In this document: positions 23 to 28,000 of the stretch, in pieces | Layout of the letters: every line of letters begins with the position of its first letter | How positions within the stretch are numbered: position 1 is the first letter of the stretch | Notes under the pieces: model-generated | Database searches by the model: none | What the model was told of the DNA's origin: nothing | The model's input: only the letters and a program-made list of their open reading frames with translations | NCBI RefSeq assembly: GCF_003667225.1 | Contig: NZ_RCOM01000004.1 | Coordinates: forward strand, 1-64,000 | Length of the DNA stretch: 64,000 bases | From: Kocuria rhizophila | Lineage (GTDB): Bacteria > Actinomycetota > Actinomycetes > Actinomycetales > Micrococcaceae | Direction of reading: 5' to 3' | Position numbers and translations under genes: made by a program

Positions 23-784
23 ATGTCCCTGACCTACACCGCCCACGACGTCCTGCGGAACGTCCGCGCGATCCCCAACCTGGTGTTCGTGGCCCTGCTG
101 CCCGCCGTGCTGTTCATCCTGTTCGGCGCGGTGCAGGGCTGGTCCGACGCCCGCCTGCCCGGGGGCAACGTCTCCGCGTACGTGATGGTGTCGATGGCCG
201 TGTACGGGGCCGTCACGGCCACCACCGCCATCTCCGCCGGCGCCGCCGTGGAGCGGCTGCAGGGCTGGGGCCGGCAGCTCGCGCTGACCCCCATGGGCAC
301 GGGCGGCTACGCGGCCACCAAGGTGGCGGTGGCCCTGCTGATCGCGGTGCTGCCCGTGGTCATCGTGTTCCTGGTGGGGGCGTTCACCAACGCCTCGATG
401 GACGATCTCTGGCGCTGGGCGCTGGCCGCCGTGCTGTGCGTGGTGGTCTCCGTGGTCTTCGCGTTCTACGGGCTTGCCGCGGGCCTGATCTTCCGCTCGG
501 ACACCGCCGTGGGGGCCGCCTCCGGCGCCCTGGTGGTGTTCGCGTTCTTCGGCAACGTGTTCATGCCGCTCTCCGGCGGGATGCTGGCCGTCGCCCGGTT
601 CACCCCCATGTATGGAATCGTGGGGATCGCCCGCTATCCCGTGACCGAAGGTGAGGTGGCCACCATGGGCGGTGCCCCGCAGACCGACAGCCTGCTGTGG
701 CTCGTGGTCAACGCCGTGGCCTGGGCCGCCGTGTTCGGGATCATCGCGCTGCTGGCCGCCCGGTCCTCCACGGGCCGCCGATGA
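23..784 (+). CDS. ABC-2 type transporter permease
   Basis: This 253-residue integral membrane protein has about six hydrophobic segments (near residues 20-40, 52-75, 98-120, 132-155, 165-190 and 225-245) and the layout of ABC-2 permeases that export drugs, lipids or peptides. A GAGGAG ribosome site lies 6 nt before the ATG. An upstream frame ending in a TGA at 30-32 may be the tail of the partner ATPase gene, which would lie outside the window; this is inference. The stop overlaps the start of the histidine kinase (ATGA), so permease, kinase and regulator are probably co-translated. That layout is typical of export systems controlled by a LiaS/DesK-type two-component system. The substrate is unknown. 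Confidence 0.85.
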   Translation: MSLTYTAHDVLRNVRAIPNLVFVALLPAVLFILFGAVQGWSDARLPGGNVSAYVMVSMAVYGAVTATTAISAGAAVERLQGWGRQLALTPMGTGGYAATKVAVALLIAVLPVVIVFLVGAFTNASMDDLWRWALAAVLCVVVSVVFAFYGLAAGLIFRSDTAVGAASGALVVFAFFGNVFMPLSGGMLAVARFTPMYGIVGIARYPVTEGEVATMGGAPQTDSLLWLVVNAVAWAAVFGIIALLAARSSTGRR

Positions 785-2121
785 GCACCCCCACTCGGAC
801 CGCCCCGCGCCCACGCACCGAGGAGCCCGAGCACGACTGGTCCGACCTGCTGTTCGCCACCGTCTGGCTCGTGTTCCTCGTCATTCCCGCCGCGGCACTG
901 CTGCAGAGCGACGAGTCGGCCTGGGCCACGGTCCTGGGACTGCTCGGACTGGTGCTCTTCGCCGGGCTCTACACGCTCTCCTGGATCCGGCACATCCTGG
1001 TTCCGCGCCTGAGCGTGCTGGGCAACGCCGTGCTGTGGTGCGTGGTCCTGCTGGTGCCGCTCGCCCTGCTGCTGCCGGCCTCCCCGTGGGGCATGACCTA
1101 CATGGCGCCGTTCTTCGTGGCCGTGTGCGCGTTCCGGCTGCCCCTGCGCCAGGGCATCCTGGCCTCGCTCCTGATCGAGGTGGCCGCCCTGCTTCCGTTG
1201 CTCATGCTGCTCCCCCGGCAGCAGTGGTTCTGGCCGCTGTTCGGCCTGGTCCCGTCCGGGCTGATCATCATGTTCTCCCGCTTCGCCGTGGAGCGCTCCG
1301 AGACCCACGAACGCCTGGCCCGCGAGCTCGAGGTCTCCCGGCAGCGCGAAGCCGTGGGCCGGGACGTCCACGACATCCTGGGCCACTCCCTCACGGTCAT
1401 CACCGTCAAGACCCAGCTCGCCCAGCGGCTCGTGGAGACGGATCCGCAGCGCGCCGTCGCCGAGCTCGACGACGTCCTGGCGCTGTCCCGCGAAGCCCTC
1501 GCGGATGTGCGCTCCACGGTCGGCAAACTGAGGGACCTGGACCTGGGCGTCGAACTCGTCCAGGCACGCGCGGCCCTGCGCGCCGCCGGGATCACCCCGC
1601 ACCTGCCGTCCTCGGTCCCGTCCCTGGACGCCGCCACCCGCTCCGCGTTCGCATGGATCCTGCGGGAGGCCGTGACCAACGTGGTCCGCCATTCGGGCGC
1701 CGCGCACTGCCGCGTCACGGTCACCAGTTCGTCGCTGCGCATCGCGGACGACGGCGCACGGGCCGCGGGTGCCTCCCCTCACCACTCCGCGCGGACCGGG
1801 CCCGGCGCTCGTCCAGACGGCGCGGCGCCCTCGACCAGCCGTCCCCGCACCAACGACGCCGCGGCGGATGCGCCCGACCGGAACGGGGTGGGGCACGTCG
1901 GCCCGGACACGCAGCGGCCGGTGCGTGCCGAGGACCGCGGTGAGGCGGCGGCGTCGTGCTCCGGAACCGAAACGCGCTCCGGGACCGGTGCCGCCGAACC
2001 GGGCCTGCGAGAGGGCAACGGCATCCGCGGCATGAAGGAACGGGCTCGTGCGGCGGGATGTGACGTGACCGTCGCGCGGGATCCCCGGGGCGGCACGACC
2101 GTGGAGGTGAGGCGGGCATGA
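781..2121 (+). CDS. sensor histidine kinase, NarL/DesK type, with an insertion in the ATP-binding domain
   Basis: The 446-residue protein has an N-terminal region of about five membrane segments (residues 22-175). A HisKA_3 dimerisation domain follows, with the phospho-acceptor His197 in the motif RDVHDILGHS, and then a HATPase_c domain with an N-box (REAVTNVVRHS), a G1 box DDG (323-325) and a G2 box GNG (starting at 412). About 86 residues of Pro/Ala/Gly/Arg-rich sequence separate G1 and G2, where related kinases have roughly 10-20 residues in the ATP lid. The ATG overlaps the permease stop and the stop overlaps the regulator start. The longer upstream frame is rejected because this ATG is translationally coupled. 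Membrane-stress or drug sensing is inferred from the family. Confidence 0.88.
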   Translation: MSTPTRTAPRPRTEEPEHDWSDLLFATVWLVFLVIPAAALLQSDESAWATVLGLLGLVLFAGLYTLSWIRHILVPRLSVLGNAVLWCVVLLVPLALLLPASPWGMTYMAPFFVAVCAFRLPLRQGILASLLIEVAALLPLLMLLPRQQWFWPLFGLVPSGLIIMFSRFAVERSETHERLARELEVSRQREAVGRDVHDILGHSLTVITVKTQLAQRLVETDPQRAVAELDDVLALSREALADVRSTVGKLRDLDLGVELVQARAALRAAGITPHLPSSVPSLDAATRSAFAWILREAVTNVVRHSGAAHCRVTVTSSSLRIADDGARAAGASPHHSARTGPGARPDGAAPSTSRPRTNDAAADAPDRNGVGHVGPDTQRPVRAEDRGEAAASCSGTETRSGTGAAEPGLREGNGIRGMKERARAAGCDVTVARDPRGGTTVEVRRA

Positions 2122-2729
2122 CCGAGATCCGAGTGCTGATCGCGGACGACCAGGCCCTCGTGCGCGCCGGACTGGCCGCCCTGCTGGACCTGGAACCGGA
2201 CATCACCGTGGTGGCCCAGGCAGCGGACGGCGCCGAGGCGGTCGCTCTTGCCGGGGACCTCCCCGTGGACGTGGCCCTGCTGGACATCGAGATGCCCGGG
2301 CTCACCGGCCTGGAGGCCACCGAGCGGATCGTCGCCGCGGGGCACGGGACGCGCTGCCTGATGGTCACCACGTTCGACCGCCCCGGCTACCTGCGGCGGG
2401 CGTTCGACGCCGGGGCGTCCGGTTTCGTGGTCAAAGACACCCCCGCTGCGGAGCTCGCGGAGGCCATCCGGAAGGTGCACGCCGGGCTGCGGGTGGTTGA
2501 CCCGGCCCTGGCCGAAAAGTCCCTGCTGGCGGGGCCCAATCCCCTGACCCCGCGGGAGCAGGACGTGCTGCGCGAGGCGTCCCACGGGGCCTCGGCGGGA
2601 CAGATCGGGCGGGCCCTGCACCTCTCCGCGGGCACGGTGCGCAACCACCTGTCCTCCGCGATTGGCAAGACCGGAACCGCCAACCGGACCGAGGCGGCGG
2701 CCGTCGCCGCGCGCAACGGGTGGCTGTAG
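2118..2729 (+). CDS. LuxR/NarL-family response regulator
   Basis: The 203-residue protein begins with a receiver domain (residues 1-120): acidic pair DD at 10-11, phospho-acceptor Asp in LLDIEMPG, and the conserved Lys in FVVKD. A LuxR-type helix-turn-helix follows ([15 protein letters not shown] ... [15 protein letters not shown]). Its ATG overlaps the kinase TGA, so the two form a cognate pair. It probably controls the adjacent ABC exporter, as in LiaRS/DesKR-like systems. The target promoter is not visible here because the operon start lies upstream of the window. Confidence 0.92.
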
Positions 2730-2799: not shown

Positions 2800-4002
2800 A
2801 TGGATGCTTCGGTGATGGCTCAGGTGTGGTGGTTGTGGGCGCTGTTCGCCCTCGTGGTGGGCATGGTGCTGGGGTACGTGCTGGCCCACCAGAAGTCGAC
2901 GGCGCTGGAGACCGAGCTGGAGGAGGCACAGGGGCAGCGGCTCGCCGCCCTGCAGGACGCCGCCTCCGCCCGGGCGGCCGCCGAGCAGCTCGAGCAGCGT
3001 GTGGAGTCCCTCGAAGCGCGGGCCGTGCAGGACCAGGACGTCATGCGCGCGCTGGCACCGCTGAACGACCAGCTCTCCTCCGTGGGCCGGCACGTGAACC
3101 AGCTGGAGCGGGACCGTGCGCAGCAGTTCGGGGCCGTGGCCCAGGCCCTGGAGGCGGCCCGCACCACGGACCAGCAGCTGTTGCACGCCACCACCTCCCT
3201 GGAGGGCTCCCTGCGCTCCACCACGGCGCGCGGTGCCTGGGGTGAGATGCAGCTGCGCCGCGTGGTGGAGGCCGCCGGCATGACCCGCCACGTGGACTTC
3301 ACGGAGCAGACGGTGCGCTCCACGGAGTCCGGCACCCAGCGCCCGGACATGGTGATCAACCTGCCCGGGGCGCAGACCGTGGTGGTGGATGCAAAGGCCC
3401 CCATGTCCTCCTACCTGGACGCCCAGGCCGTCCCCGCGGACGGCTCCCCCGAGAACGAGCAGCGCCGCGCCCAGCTGCTCACCGCGCACGCCAAGGCCCT
3501 GAGGGCCCACGTGAACACCCTGGGCACCAAGAAGTACTGGTCCGCGGAGGAGAACTCCCCCGAACTGGTGATGTGCTTCGTGCCGGTCGAGTCCGCCCTG
3601 GCCGCCGCGCTGGATGCGGATGCCTCCCTGCTGGATCACGCGGCGCGTGCGAACGTGGCCCTGGTGTCCCCGGTGTCCCTGCTCGCCTCGCTCAAGGCCG
3701 TGGCGTTCAGCTGGCGTCAGGCCACCCTCACGGACAACGCACGAGAGCTGTACCGGCTGTCCCGGGAGCTCTACGACCGCATGGGCGCCGTGGGCAAGCA
3801 CCTCTCCGACATGGGCGGTTCACTGCGGCGCTCGGTGGACGGCTACAACAAGCTGGTGGGTTCCCTCGAGTCCCGGGTCCTGCCCTCGGCGCGGAGGATT
3901 GCCGAGCTGGACCCCACGGCCACCGACTCCGAGGCGCTGGAGACGAGAACCGTGGAGTCCGTGCCGCGACCAGTCACGGCCACGGAGTTCGTGAACGACT
4001 GA
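2800..4002 (+). CDS. rmuC: DNA recombination protein RmuC
   Basis: This 400-residue protein has an N-terminal membrane anchor (residues 8-27), a long coiled coil (about 28-110) and the RmuC nuclease-like domain (about 130-330, including RGAWGEMQLRRVVEAAGM and VVVDAKAPM). RmuC proteins are linked to limiting DNA inversions and to recombination at repeats; their biochemistry is poorly known. The start is placed at 2800, six nt after a CATGGT hexamer resembling the other leaderless promoters here. An ATG at 2815 is an alternative. Convergent with ispH, from which it is separated by a tandem-repeat region. Confidence 0.87.
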   Translation: MDASVMAQVWWLWALFALVVGMVLGYVLAHQKSTALETELEEAQGQRLAALQDAASARAAAEQLEQRVESLEARAVQDQDVMRALAPLNDQLSSVGRHVNQLERDRAQQFGAVAQALEAARTTDQQLLHATTSLEGSLRSTTARGAWGEMQLRRVVEAAGMTRHVDFTEQTVRSTESGTQRPDMVINLPGAQTVVVDAKAPMSSYLDAQAVPADGSPENEQRRAQLLTAHAKALRAHVNTLGTKKYWSAEENSPELVMCFVPVESALAAALDADASLLDHAARANVALVSPVSLLASLKAVAFSWRQATLTDNARELYRLSRELYDRMGAVGKHLSDMGGSLRRSVDGYNKLVGSLESRVLPSARRIAELDPTATDSEALETRTVESVPRPVTATEFVND

Positions 4003-4008
4003 CCGCTG

Positions 4009-4072
4009 CCCAGGGCAAGGGCCTGGCACGGCGGCCCAGGGCAAGGGCCTGGCACGGCGGCCCAGGGCAAGG
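4009..4072. repeat. 26-bp tandem repeat downstream of rmuC
   Basis: Two perfect 26-bp units (4009-4034 and 4035-4060, beginning CCCAGGGCAAGG) are followed by a third that matches only over its first 12 bases. More degenerate copies of related words (CAGCGCGAGGGC, CTCAGC) continue to 4191. The block fills the space between the converging rmuC and ispH genes and has no T-tract terminator. It could be a minisatellite expanded from a terminator-like sequence. Confidence 0.8.
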
Positions 4073-4191
4073 TCCTGACGCCAGGGCTCGGGGGGACGAG
4101 GCGGTGCCAGGGCTCAGCCAGAAGACCCGGAGCGCAGGCTCAGCGCGAGGGCCTGGATCCAGCGCTCAGCACGAGGTCTTGGCGTCAGGTC

Positions 4192-13242: not shown

Positions 13243-14259
13243 TCAGCGCCGCTTCTTGGACCGGCTGTTCTTGACCTTGCACCCGGGCTTGCGGCGCAGC
13301 CCCGGCTTCGTGCTCGCCCCGGCCTTGGCCCACCCACCGGACTGGGGCTTGACGCTGCGCGTTGCCGGCTGCTTCTCCTGCGACTTCTCTGAGGCCGCAG
13401 GCTTCATCGCCCGTGACGGCCGCCCCTCTACCCCGGACGACGCCGCCTGGCCGGGCGCCGCGCCGTCGTCCCGCCCGCTGGACTCCTTGCGCCCACGCAC
13501 GATGCCCACGAAGCGCTGCACCGCGCCCTCCATGTCCTCGTCCAGACCCCGGGGCCACACGAGGAAGACGGGGACGGTCGGGGCGTCCGTGAGTTCGCGG
13601 TGGGTGACGTCCTTGCGGGCGTGCAGCCGTGCCACGGACATCGGCAGCACCACGGGACCCACACCGGCGGCCGCGAGTTCCACGGCCATGGCGGCGTCGT
13701 CGATGTCCGCGTGCGCCTGGGGCGTGGACTCCTCCGCGAGCTGTGCCGTGGTGAGGCTGTCCAGGACCCCCAGGACGTCGTCGGTGCTCAGCACGGCCAC
13801 CTGGAGCTCGTCGTAGAGGTGCACCGCGTGGTGAGTGGTGCGGAGGTGGTCCGGGTCGGGGTCCTCGGGCGACCAGTCGAGGCGGACGAAGCACGCGGTG
13901 ACCTCCCCGGAGTCCAGGGCCTGCCGCCACCCGGCGGCCGTCAGCAGCTCGTCCCGGAGGACCGGCCGCATGCGGCGCTGGCGCCACCGGCCGAGCCACT
14001 TCCCCGGCATGACCCCGGGGACGTAGCCGACGGTGAGGAACGGCCCGGCGGCCTCGGGGTCCCCAGGGTGCAGGGCGTCCTCGTGAGCAGGAGCGTCGTC
14101 GTGGGCCGATGCGGGAGCGGCGTCGTCGTGGCCCGGGGCAGGCGCGGCGTCGTCGTGGCCCGGGGCGGGCGCAGCGGTGCCGCGAACGTCATCGGGGCCG
14201 TCTGCGGGATCTGCGGAGGAGAGCTGGGGCGAGGAAGGCGTGGGGTCCGCTGCGGTCAT
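13243..14259 (-). CDS. LysR effector-domain-like protein without HTH
   Basis: This 338-residue protein begins with 70 residues of Ala/Pro/Asp/His-rich sequence that include the repeat PAPGHDDAA (twice) and related copies. From residue 75 it resembles the periplasmic-binding-like effector domain of LysR regulators (FLTVGYVPGVMPGKWLGRW, TACFVRLDW, VHLYDELQVAVLSTDDVL, GVGPVVLPMSVARLHARKDV). No DNA-binding helix-turn-helix is present. The C-terminus is a Lys/Arg-rich tail (GLRRKPGCKVKNSRSKKRR) that could bind nucleic acid. Similar proteins occur in other Micrococcaceae as far as I recall. The function is unknown. It is convergent with the MscS gene. Confidence 0.75.
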   Translation of the reverse strand: MTAADPTPSSPQLSSADPADGPDDVRGTAAPAPGHDDAAPAPGHDDAAPASAHDDAPAHEDALHPGDPEAAGPFLTVGYVPGVMPGKWLGRWRQRRMRPVLRDELLTAAGWRQALDSGEVTACFVRLDWSPEDPDPDHLRTTHHAVHLYDELQVAVLSTDDVLGVLDSLTTAQLAEESTPQAHADIDDAAMAVELAAAGVGPVVLPMSVARLHARKDVTHRELTDAPTVPVFLVWPRGLDEDMEGAVQRFVGIVRGRKESSGRDDGAAPGQAASSGVEGRPSRAMKPAASEKSQEKQPATRSVKPQSGGWAKAGASTKPGLRRKPGCKVKNSRSKKRR

Positions 14260-26074: not shown

Positions 26075-28000
26075 TCAGTCCTGCGAGGGCAGCTCGTCCC
26101 TCAGGTCCTCCACGAGGTCCTCCAGGATCTCGGCGGCCTCCAGCATCCCGTTGCGCAGCTCGGTGAGCTCCATCCCGTGGAGCACGCCCACCGCGTAGCG
26201 GTCCTTGCCGGTGCGCTGGAACGAGCGGGCGGCGCGCGCGAGCCACTCCTCCATGACCGCGGCGTCCGTGATCACCCCGAGGTCGTCCTGGTAGTCCTTG
26301 GCCACTGCGGCGGCGCGGATCCGCTTCTTCCCCGCCTTGGCGTGCGCCCGTCCCAGCGCCTCGGAGACGTAGCGCGCGGACTTCGCGGCCTTGCGGGTCT
26401 CGTGCAGCACCTCGAACGCCGCCGCGGTCTGCAGAGCGTCCTTGCCGGGCAGGGCGATCCGCTCCCCCACGTCCATGGCCATGTCGCTCAGCGAAACCTC
26501 GGCCCCCGGTTCGGGTGTGGTGGTGCTGGCCGTGACGACCACCCGGTTCAGTGCCGCGCCGAGCACCGCCTTGGCGAACTTCCTGTCGGACAGCGCCGCG
26601 GCCTCCTCCGTGAAACCCTCTCCGCGACCGAGCGCGTGCAGGTCCCGGACCAGCTGGAGGTAGTCCTGACTGTCCAGCTCCCGCCGGACCGCCCGCCCGG
26701 TGCCGGTGCCCAGGTGACTGGCCGCCTCGCGCAGCTCCTCCTTGGCGGCACCGCTCAGCACACCCGCCGGCTGGCCGTCGAGCAGCACGTCCAGCCGCTC
26801 CAGGGCCACCTCCTGGTCCCGGGCGTCGCCGAGCACACGCGCCAGGTCCTTGAGCCGCTGCTCCATGTCCGCCACCACGTCCTCGGCCACGAAGCCCCGG
26901 GACGCCTGGAGCACGCTGCGCAGCGCCCGCGAGCGCACGCGCATCTGGTGCACCGAGTCCTCGGCCTCGATGCGCACCGCGAAGTCCCAGCGCTGCAGCT
27001 GCGAGGTCAGGTGGGAGATCATCTCCGCGAGGACGTCGGCCCCCGTGCGTTCCCCCCGGTCCCCGGTGTCGGACGACGACGCCGCGTCGTTGCCCTTCGC
27101 ATGCCCGCCCCCACTCCCCGCGGAGCTCTTGCCGTTCTTCGTGTCCTTGCCGTTCTTGGACGACTTGCCCTTGGCGGAGCCCTTGTCCTTCTTCTTCCCC
27201 GAGCCCTTGTTCTTAGACGAGCTCGTGTCCTTGGAGGAGCCCTCGTCGTTCGACGAGCCCTTCCCGGACGGCTGCTCTCCCTCAGACTCTCCCGCACCCG
27301 GCGCGAACCCCGCGGAGGCGGCGTCAGCGGCGTCGTCGGACGTGACGGCGGCGTGCTCCGGCGAGACCACGCGCACCACGTCCCCGCCGTCCTGGCCGAG
27401 GGCCCGGGCGATCTTGGCCACCGAGGAGGACGGCTCCGCCCCCGCGGCGAACAGGACGGTCTCCACGGCCTCGAACACGGCCTTGGCCTGCTTCTCGGTG
27501 AGGTCGTCGCGCGTGAGCTCGACCTCGCACTCGGTCCACTCCCGGGTGACCCCAGCGCGCTCGTCCCGCGCAGAGACGGCGTCCAGGCACAGCTCGGCGT
27601 ACTGCCCGTCCTCCGCGAGCACCGGGTACAGCGTGCGCCGCGTGTCCACGGTGGCCACGGGCTGGAGGTCCTCGCCCAGGGTGAGACCCAGCAGCACCTT
27701 TCGCAGTGCCGCCGGAAGCCGGTCGGGGGCGGTCTTGAGGGGCTCGTAGTGCAGCTCGCCGCGCACCGCACCGGCCTCGTACTTCACGTGCCAGCCGTCG
27801 TCGCTGCCGCCGGTACGACGCCGCACGGCCACCGCGGAGCGCGCGAGCAGCAGATCGGCGGTGTCGTAGTACGTGGCGCTCATGTCGTGCTCCACGGGAT
27901 CGCCCACGGTGAAGTGCTCCAGCTTGTGCAGCTTGAGCTTGGGCTTCTTGTTCCCCGCGACGTCGTACTTGCGCTCGATCTCAACCTGATGCGTGACCAT
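26075..28000 (-). CDS. CYTH-CHAD domain protein with a Ser/Lys-rich linker
   Basis: The 641-residue protein starts with a CYTH domain (residues 3-205; QVEIERKYDV gives the ExExK signature, and ATYYDTADLLLARSAVAVRRR). A linker of about 110 residues (210-320) is rich in Ser, Lys, Gly and Asp/Glu. A CHAD domain (325-640) follows, with conserved histidines and basic residues (SVHQMRVRSRALRSVL, ADMEQRLKDLARVLGDARDQEV). CYTH enzymes act on triphosphates and CHAD binds polyphosphate, so polyphosphate handling is the likely role. An AGGGAG site precedes the ATG. Confidence 0.92.
   Translation of the reverse strand: MVTHQVEIERKYDVAGNKKPKLKLHKLEHFTVGDPVEHDMSATYYDTADLLLARSAVAVRRRTGGSDDGWHVKYEAGAVRGELHYEPLKTAPDRLPAALRKVLLGLTLGEDLQPVATVDTRRTLYPVLAEDGQYAELCLDAVSARDERAGVTREWTECEVELTRDDLTEKQAKAVFEAVETVLFAAGAEPSSSVAKIARALGQDGGDVVRVVSPEHAAVTSDDAADAASAGFAPGAGESEGEQPSGKGSSNDEGSSKDTSSSKNKGSGKKKDKGSAKGKSSKNGKDTKNGKSSAGSGGGHAKGNDAASSSDTGDRGERTGADVLAEMISHLTSQLQRWDFAVRIEAEDSVHQMRVRSRALRSVLQASRGFVAEDVVADMEQRLKDLARVLGDARDQEVALERLDVLLDGQPAGVLSGAAKEELREAASHLGTGTGRAVRRELDSQDYLQLVRDLHALGRGEGFTEEAAALSDRKFAKAVLGAALNRVVVTASTTTPEPGAEVSLSDMAMDVGERIALPGKDALQTAAAFEVLHETRKAAKSARYVSEALGRAHAKAGKKRIRAAAVAKDYQDDLGVITDAAVMEEWLARAARSFQRTGKDRYAVGVLHGMELTELRNGMLEAAEILEDLVEDLRDELPSQD

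Follow-up and report, generated by a model that had tools for sequence, protein, structure and literature searches.

An expanded, probably tolerated ATP lid in a Kocuria histidine kinase holds a clade-specific 10-mer distributed like a DNA uptake sequence

How did the ATP lid of a sensor histidine kinase come to measure 86 residues, and why do two copies of a dispersed 10-mer, ACGACGCCGC, lie within it? The question was raised by the window studied here, i.e., the whole stretch of 64,000 nucleotides of Kocuria rhizophila DNA that was analysed. The kinase gene spans 781..2121 on the + strand (446 aa). Translation and alignment place its G1 box DDG at residues 323-325 (1747..1755, +) and its G2 box GNG at residues 412-414 (2014..2022, +). 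The lid between them (residues 326-411; 1756..2013, +), characterised by predicted disorder (328-407), dN/dS and codon-position GC, contains 18 Ala, 12 Gly, 11 Arg and 9 Pro among its 86 residues. A forward copy of the 10-mer (1853..1862, + strand) codes for part of Asn-Asp-Ala-Ala and a reverse copy (1948..1957, - strand) for part of Ala-Ala-Ser-Cys. Length, position and both copies are exactly as the initial annotation had given them. Our reading, which we consider probable, is that the lid grew in one Kocuria clade as a disordered loop under near-neutral evolution, hosting a clade-specific 10-mer whose distribution is that of a DNA uptake sequence.

The kinase was assigned by its ORF and by Pfam and structure matches. 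HisKA_3 scored 58.7 bits (Pfam cut-off 24; match 189-253), and the domain region, residues about 188-256 (1342..1548, +), includes the H box DVHDILGH. HATPase_c reached 23.5 bits (cut-off 26.4) in a match which spans 292-326 and ends at the lid, as expected for an ATPase domain split by a long loop. The alignment shows conserved N, G1 and G2 boxes in the protein. By sequence, the closest solved structure is DesK (7ssj, E 8.3e-21). A Foldseek search with the kinase model (mean pLDDT 66) gave 31 matches with E <= 0.001, of which ranks 1-29 were all DesK; 7ssj was found with E 7e-10 and a TM score by target of 0.51, the isolated ATP-binding domain 3ehg with a TM score of 0.75. By domain and fold, the protein is therefore a DesK-type HisKA_3 kinase, and we infer that its kinase activity is intact. 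DesK of Bacillus subtilis has the same H, N, G1 and G2 boxes, but its lid before the KGHG box is short compared with the 86 residues in Kocuria, and the Kocuria gene differs in sitting with an ABC-2 transporter. An ABC-2 type permease-like protein (23..784, +; below Pfam cut-offs) precedes the kinase in what is apparently the same operon, and a LuxR/NarL-type response regulator (2118..2729, +; Pfam Response_reg and GerE), the probable kinase partner, follows it. The first ORF of the operon in K. varians (L002) resembles, by eye, an ABC ATPase. By gene content, the arrangement resembles LnrJK-LnrLMN of B. subtilis, a two-component system with an ABC exporter, in which ABC transporter, kinase and regulator also occur together (available sections of PMC7472640).

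To determine how the lid length is distributed, 27 Kocuria genomes were searched for the kinase. Orthologues were found at 21 loci (L017-L037), of which L033 in G011 was broken with an unreadable lid and was dropped, leaving 20 orthologues with a readable lid. G003, G005, G006, G013, G021 and G023 gave weak matches only (E 2e-10 or worse) and were left out. The 86-residue lid of the genome of the window (G000) recurs in its three closest orthologues (G026, G016, G012). Lids of 77 residues were found in G008 and G009, of 55 in G025, of 31 in G024 and of 18 in G001, G002, G007 and G018, the last four being genomes rich in the 10-mer. In motif-poor genomes, the lid has 7 (G014, G015) or 9 residues (G004, G010, G017, G019, G020, G022). 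The statement in the initial annotation that related kinases have 10-20 residues is thus roughly right, with 7-9 in the eight motif-poor orthologues and 18 in four motif-rich ones. Lids are also short in the Humibacter and Bacillales rows of the alignment. In a tree of the kinase calculated without the lid, in which the Humibacter row served as far root only (its lid was misparsed, lid -1), all lids of at least 18 residues fall into one group of 12 with a support of 85/91, which is below the tree tool's 95/80 mark. This group consists of two sub-groups and lids >31 residues occur in both; hence, long expansions arose at least twice. Judged from these alignments, the long lid is an expansion of a loop which is short elsewhere, and it belongs to the clade and not to this genome alone. 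The proposed insertion therefore holds in the sense of a lineage-specific expansion of a short loop, but not as a peculiarity of this strain, given that the nearest relatives have the same 86-residue lid. Of the two signs of an old family feature named in the initial annotation, one was seen: close homologues have the same long lid, but its residues are not conserved.

A loop of this kind, placed between two glycine boxes, might serve a regulatory function by slowing or gating ATP binding or by contacting the response regulator, in line with the effect on ATP binding or on the regulator that the initial annotation expected. Histidine kinase lids close over the nucleotide and differ most among kinases, and in a comparison of solved structures including VanS they are the most variable part and often disordered, as is predicted for the Kocuria lid (accessible text of PMC10017428). 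By the measure used there, the Kocuria lid would be roughly 105 residues long, with the N-box end placed by eye. The constancy of the length, 86 residues in each of four genomes and 77 in both of two others, also favours a regulatory role. However, length (18-86 residues) and sequence vary widely within the clade, and dN/dS in four close pairs was 1.21, 0.64, 1.48 and 1.41 for the lid compared with 0.13, 0.11, 0.14 and 0.05 for the core. The other five pairs gave lid values of 0.40, 0.63, 1.13, 0.37 and 0.20, and the core value was ≤ 0.20 in all nine pairs. Lid values are noisy due to the few codons, and the range of 0.20-0.63 in some of the more distant pairs, which speaks for a regulatory role, makes some constraint on the lid possible. 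With a near-neutral lid and a strongly purified core in close pairs, a selected role of the lid is not indicated, and the proposed biochemical effect finds no support here.

The base composition argues in the same direction. Codon positions 1, 2 and 3 have GC contents of 0.80/0.76/0.83 in the lid, compared with means of 0.72/0.50/0.92 in the genes called in the window. In this respect, the lid resembles GC-rich DNA on which coding has left little mark, and its Pro/Ala/Gly/Arg content is thereby accounted for as well. We rejected the idea that the lid stems from a frameshift or from a different reading frame, since the codon-position GC is flat and not rotated. AlphaFold2, run with a 15-row alignment, gave pLDDT values <50 across residues 328-407; in blocks of ten residues, values were 85-93 in 261-320 and 79-87 in 411-446. 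The lid is predicted to be disordered, as the initial annotation had envisaged, although a low pLDDT from 15 rows is not a proof. Taken together, the data point to a tolerated, nearly neutral loop rather than a selected regulatory module, with a biochemical effect being possible; we regard the regulatory explanation as improbable.

The 10-mer is a constant companion of the expanded lid. An exact copy of ACGACGCCGC lies in the lid of all 12 readable orthologues from motif-rich genomes and in none of the eight from motif-poor genomes, whose lids of 21-27 nt offer little room. A reverse copy was found in 11 of the 12; the lid of G009 holds a forward copy only and has lost the reverse one. When the lid of G000 was shuffled preserving dinucleotides, at least one copy appeared in 20 of 2000 shuffles, and 0.083 copies are expected from the density of the motif in coding DNA of a sister genome, compared with two observed. 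The copies in the G000 lid are unlikely by chance. Shuffled 18-residue lids contained a copy in 11 or 12 of 2000 cases.

The lid copies could nevertheless be nothing special, i.e., inherited from a single Ala-Ala-Ser stretch that an ancestor encoded with GC-rich codons, with the forward copies arising by chance in a GC-rich loop of a genome full of the motif. All motif-rich orthologues belong to one clade, so that the contrast of 12 to 8 lids may be a single event. The reverse copy reads GCG GCG TCG; in the sample of G012 described below, 39% of Ala codons are GCG and 21% of Ser codons are TCG. Being partly a repetition of these codons, the reverse copy could have persisted by descent alone. 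Against this, shuffles of 11 lids each hold a copy in only 4 to 41 of 2000, and the two groups with forward copies have them at separate places in the lid (position 97 for the K. varians group, 22 for G009). We think this account rather unlikely, albeit worth keeping in mind. As the reverse copy is present in 18-residue, 31-residue and long lids, it is probably older than the long expansions; its distance to GNG differs between the sub-groups, therefore repeated gain is also possible.

Insertion of a mobile or repeat-bearing cassette, the origin suggested in the initial annotation, would fit the flat codon-position GC, which suggests a non-coding make-up, and the two motif copies in +- order. 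However, a search of the own genome with the 258-bp lid found no second copy; beyond the lid itself there were 40 matches, all ≤ 70 bases, many of them over the reverse ACGACGCCGC. A REP-type repeat or mobile cassette was rejected, because the whole unit is without homologous copies in its own genome. In addition, lengths differ between sub-clades and the motif is already present in the shortest lids of the clade, the reverse copy being found in those of 18 and 31 residues. A cassette origin is thus very improbable. An RNA hairpin formed by the two lid copies was considered as well. Although the two arms do pair in the structure predicted, the stretch is no more stable than shuffled sequences (z -0.69; 42 of 200 shuffles at least as stable), and the hairpin was discarded as unsupported.

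Outside the lid, ACGACGCCGC is abundant. The window contains 28 copies compared with 0.85 expected, and the maximum of 100 dinucleotide shuffles was 4. Across the whole genome, 503 forward and 492 reverse copies were counted (995 in total), the strands thus being alike, while the reversed control word gave 21 + 15 = 36. Twelve of 27 Kocuria genomes are motif-rich (499-1124 copies); the other fifteen have 44-237, counts which are mostly still above their controls. Among 245 genomes of the family (18 Kocuria), none outside Kocuria reaches 499, the highest count being 420 in genus g27. Two genomes of g27 had 202/218 copies per strand against 17/11 for the control (G052) and 151/155 against 22/11 (G079). 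In genus g3 (G083, G104, G210 and G244 were noted), copies per strand vary from 1 to 158. Enrichment outside Kocuria may represent a second gain or a relic.

For a closer view of the distribution, 20 stretches of 20 kb from the complete motif-rich genome G012 (400 of 2698 kb) and stretches of the complete motif-poor genome G010 (a first sample of 20, 60 in all) were used, with genes called by a simple home-made caller. ACGACGCCGC is the top over-represented 10-mer of the G012 sample, both in the whole and in intergenic DNA, and no comparable over-represented 10-mer was seen in the 60 G010 stretches. Intergenic copies numbered 69 in the G012 sample plus window compared with 1.58 expected (44-fold), and 1 compared with 1.24 expected in the first G010 sample. 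The window and part of the G012 stretch L052 are orthologous, thus the pooled counts are not fully independent. A protein-level codon effect as origin of the 10-mer is ruled out by the intergenic excess. The density in G012 is 0.70 copies per kb in intergenic regions versus 0.32 in genes. Single-base variants of the word show a strict core, with positions 1, 4, 7 and 10 being more tolerant.

Genic copies in G012 (59 sense, 40 antisense) are mostly read as xDAA (52) or AASx (22). At the 20 genic sites for which G010 has an orthologue, identity was 0.31 compared with 0.55 expected (a value this low arose in 4 of 5000 simulations), and 6 of the 20 sites touched insertions compared with 2.0 expected (46 of 5000 simulations reached 6); these values refer to a single reference genome, and one orthologous position was counted twice. 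At 79 control places with similar residues lacking the motif, identity was 0.47 and 5 touched insertions. In an earlier run with 40 G010 stretches, insertions or unaligned ends were involved at 7 of 13 sites (1.8 expected); the result relied on is the one from 60 stretches with end-to-end alignment, which is larger and weaker. ACGACGCCGC thus appears to prefer weakly conserved, permissive protein regions. Two genes called in the window, 13243-14259 and 26075-28000, contain four and three exact copies, respectively, and are candidates for further motif-rich loops.

Successive copies less than 60 bp apart in the G012 sample plus window are arranged as +- pairs nine times, compared with 1.24 expected, a number reached in 0 of 2000 simulations. 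The other orders occur 2, 1 and 1 times (about 1.2 expected each). Eight of the nine +- pairs are intergenic. Over-representation together with inverted intergenic pairs would fit a terminator or a protein-binding site, and ACGACGCCGC might accordingly be a DNA signal unrelated to uptake, i.e., a word bound by a factor for chromosome organisation, repair or termination, with the lid copies as by-products. A polar motif of the Chi or KOPS type was rejected, since the halves of the G012 sample show no replication-related strand bias (44/49 and 30/40, assuming the origin near coordinate 1). A pure terminator is contradicted by the 99 of 163 copies in the G012 sample which lie inside genes and by the fact that most copies are single. 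Overall, a non-uptake signal is doubtful, although by no means far-fetched.

The 10-mer was also compared with DNA uptake sequences. According to the parts of PMC3630211, PMC1939737 and PMC2346458 at hand, these occur in hundreds to thousands of copies with an intergenic excess and in permissive locations, form inverted intergenic pairs tied to terminators and have no chromosomal orientation bias, one orientation being commoner in genes. DUS of Neisseriaceae and USS of Pasteurellaceae, 9-12-mers repeated hundreds to thousands of times, share with ACGACGCCGC the lack of orientation bias, the intergenic excess, the hairpin-capable inverted pairs and the permissive places, as far as these sources extend. 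ACGACGCCGC differs from DUS and USS in being unrelated in sequence and in belonging to a Gram-positive actinomycete. It is thus distributed like an uptake sequence, and a function in uptake may be supposed. Neisseriaceae and Pasteurellaceae are described as the only families known to discriminate DNA by such motifs (sections available of PMC12616744). No uptake-type motif for Kocuria or any other actinomycete was found among the titles and opening lines of abstracts listed in the literature searches, which covered few subscription papers.

ComEC, the competence gene searched for, was above the cut-off in 26 of 27 Kocuria genomes including all 12 motif-rich ones, and thus does not separate rich from poor genomes. 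In G010, comEC is split into two parts about 34 kb apart (L091:9260-9700, i.e., G010:C1 at about 129.27 kb, and G010:C1:163086-163805). The first part runs into a reading frame which resembles, by eye, a serine recombinase; an integrated element seems to interrupt the gene. Micrococcus luteus belongs to the same family as Kocuria. Its natural transformation is reported to depend on Flp pili (excerpts of PMC4322843 and PMC6370729), and the terms ‘uptake sequence’, ‘foreign DNA’ and ‘heterologous’ are absent from the portion of PMC4322843 available. The competence system of K. rhizophila was judged incomplete or divergent in a published genome paper, in the text of PMC13388538 that is accessible.

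Recombination was detected next to the lid. G025 (K. tytonis-type) and G026 diverge by 3.5% up to about position 1680 of the window and by 16.4% thereafter, the lid being excluded (chi2 206; the largest value of 200 permutations was 16.4). The same boundary was found for G016 and G000 versus G025 (L021 versus L017, L018 and L019; 3.1-5.1% changing to about 16%). It lies about 76 bases before the lid. On sequence grounds, this is a clear exchange boundary, showing that DNA of this locus was exchanged between species of the clade. Exchange of this sort is what a transformation model needs, but transformation as its cause is not implied. A signal between G007 and G018 was weak (chi2 23.5, permutation maximum 17.5) and was not used.

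From these data, we infer an order of lid events and a molecular drive. An ancestral lid of 7-9 residues would have grown by about ten residues or more, the reverse motif (Ala-Ala-Ser) among them, and the lid would be tolerated because the ATP-binding fold closes around the loop. Biased uptake and recombination may have kept the motif in place by restoring it (molecular drive), while the surrounding amino acids drifted. The mechanism proposed for known uptake sequences is gradual point mutation and not insertion (PMC1939737, as far as its text was available). The loop would then have expanded at least twice independently, namely in the K. varians/K. tytonis group (to 55-86 residues) and in K. 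marina (to 77), and the expanded lids would have gained further motif copies. The strongest form of this model, in which ACGACGCCGC is a working uptake sequence of the Kocuria clade, the third independent origin of sequence-specific transformation and the first in Gram-positives, and in which the lid records how the motif entered and persisted during swelling without breaking the enzyme, is put forward tentatively, its chances being in our estimate slightly less than even.

If it is true, the Kocuria motif would open the origin and drive of an uptake system to tests in Gram-positives, the motif-poor sister species serving as controls. The lid displays the cost side, having swollen to about 10x the length found in motif-poor relatives with a core still under strong purifying selection. 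The motif is the part most worth pursuing.

Other repeats were encountered in the course of the analysis. From the end of the ORF ending at 4002, three repeat copies with a spacing of 26 bp extend over window positions 4002-4093. In G010, the intergenic words AGCGCAACTG (22 copies, 0.3 expected) and ATCCACTCGG (22 copies, 0.6 expected) were found in the stretches L067-L086, L091-L110 and L113-L132, and both are probably parts of a longer repeat.
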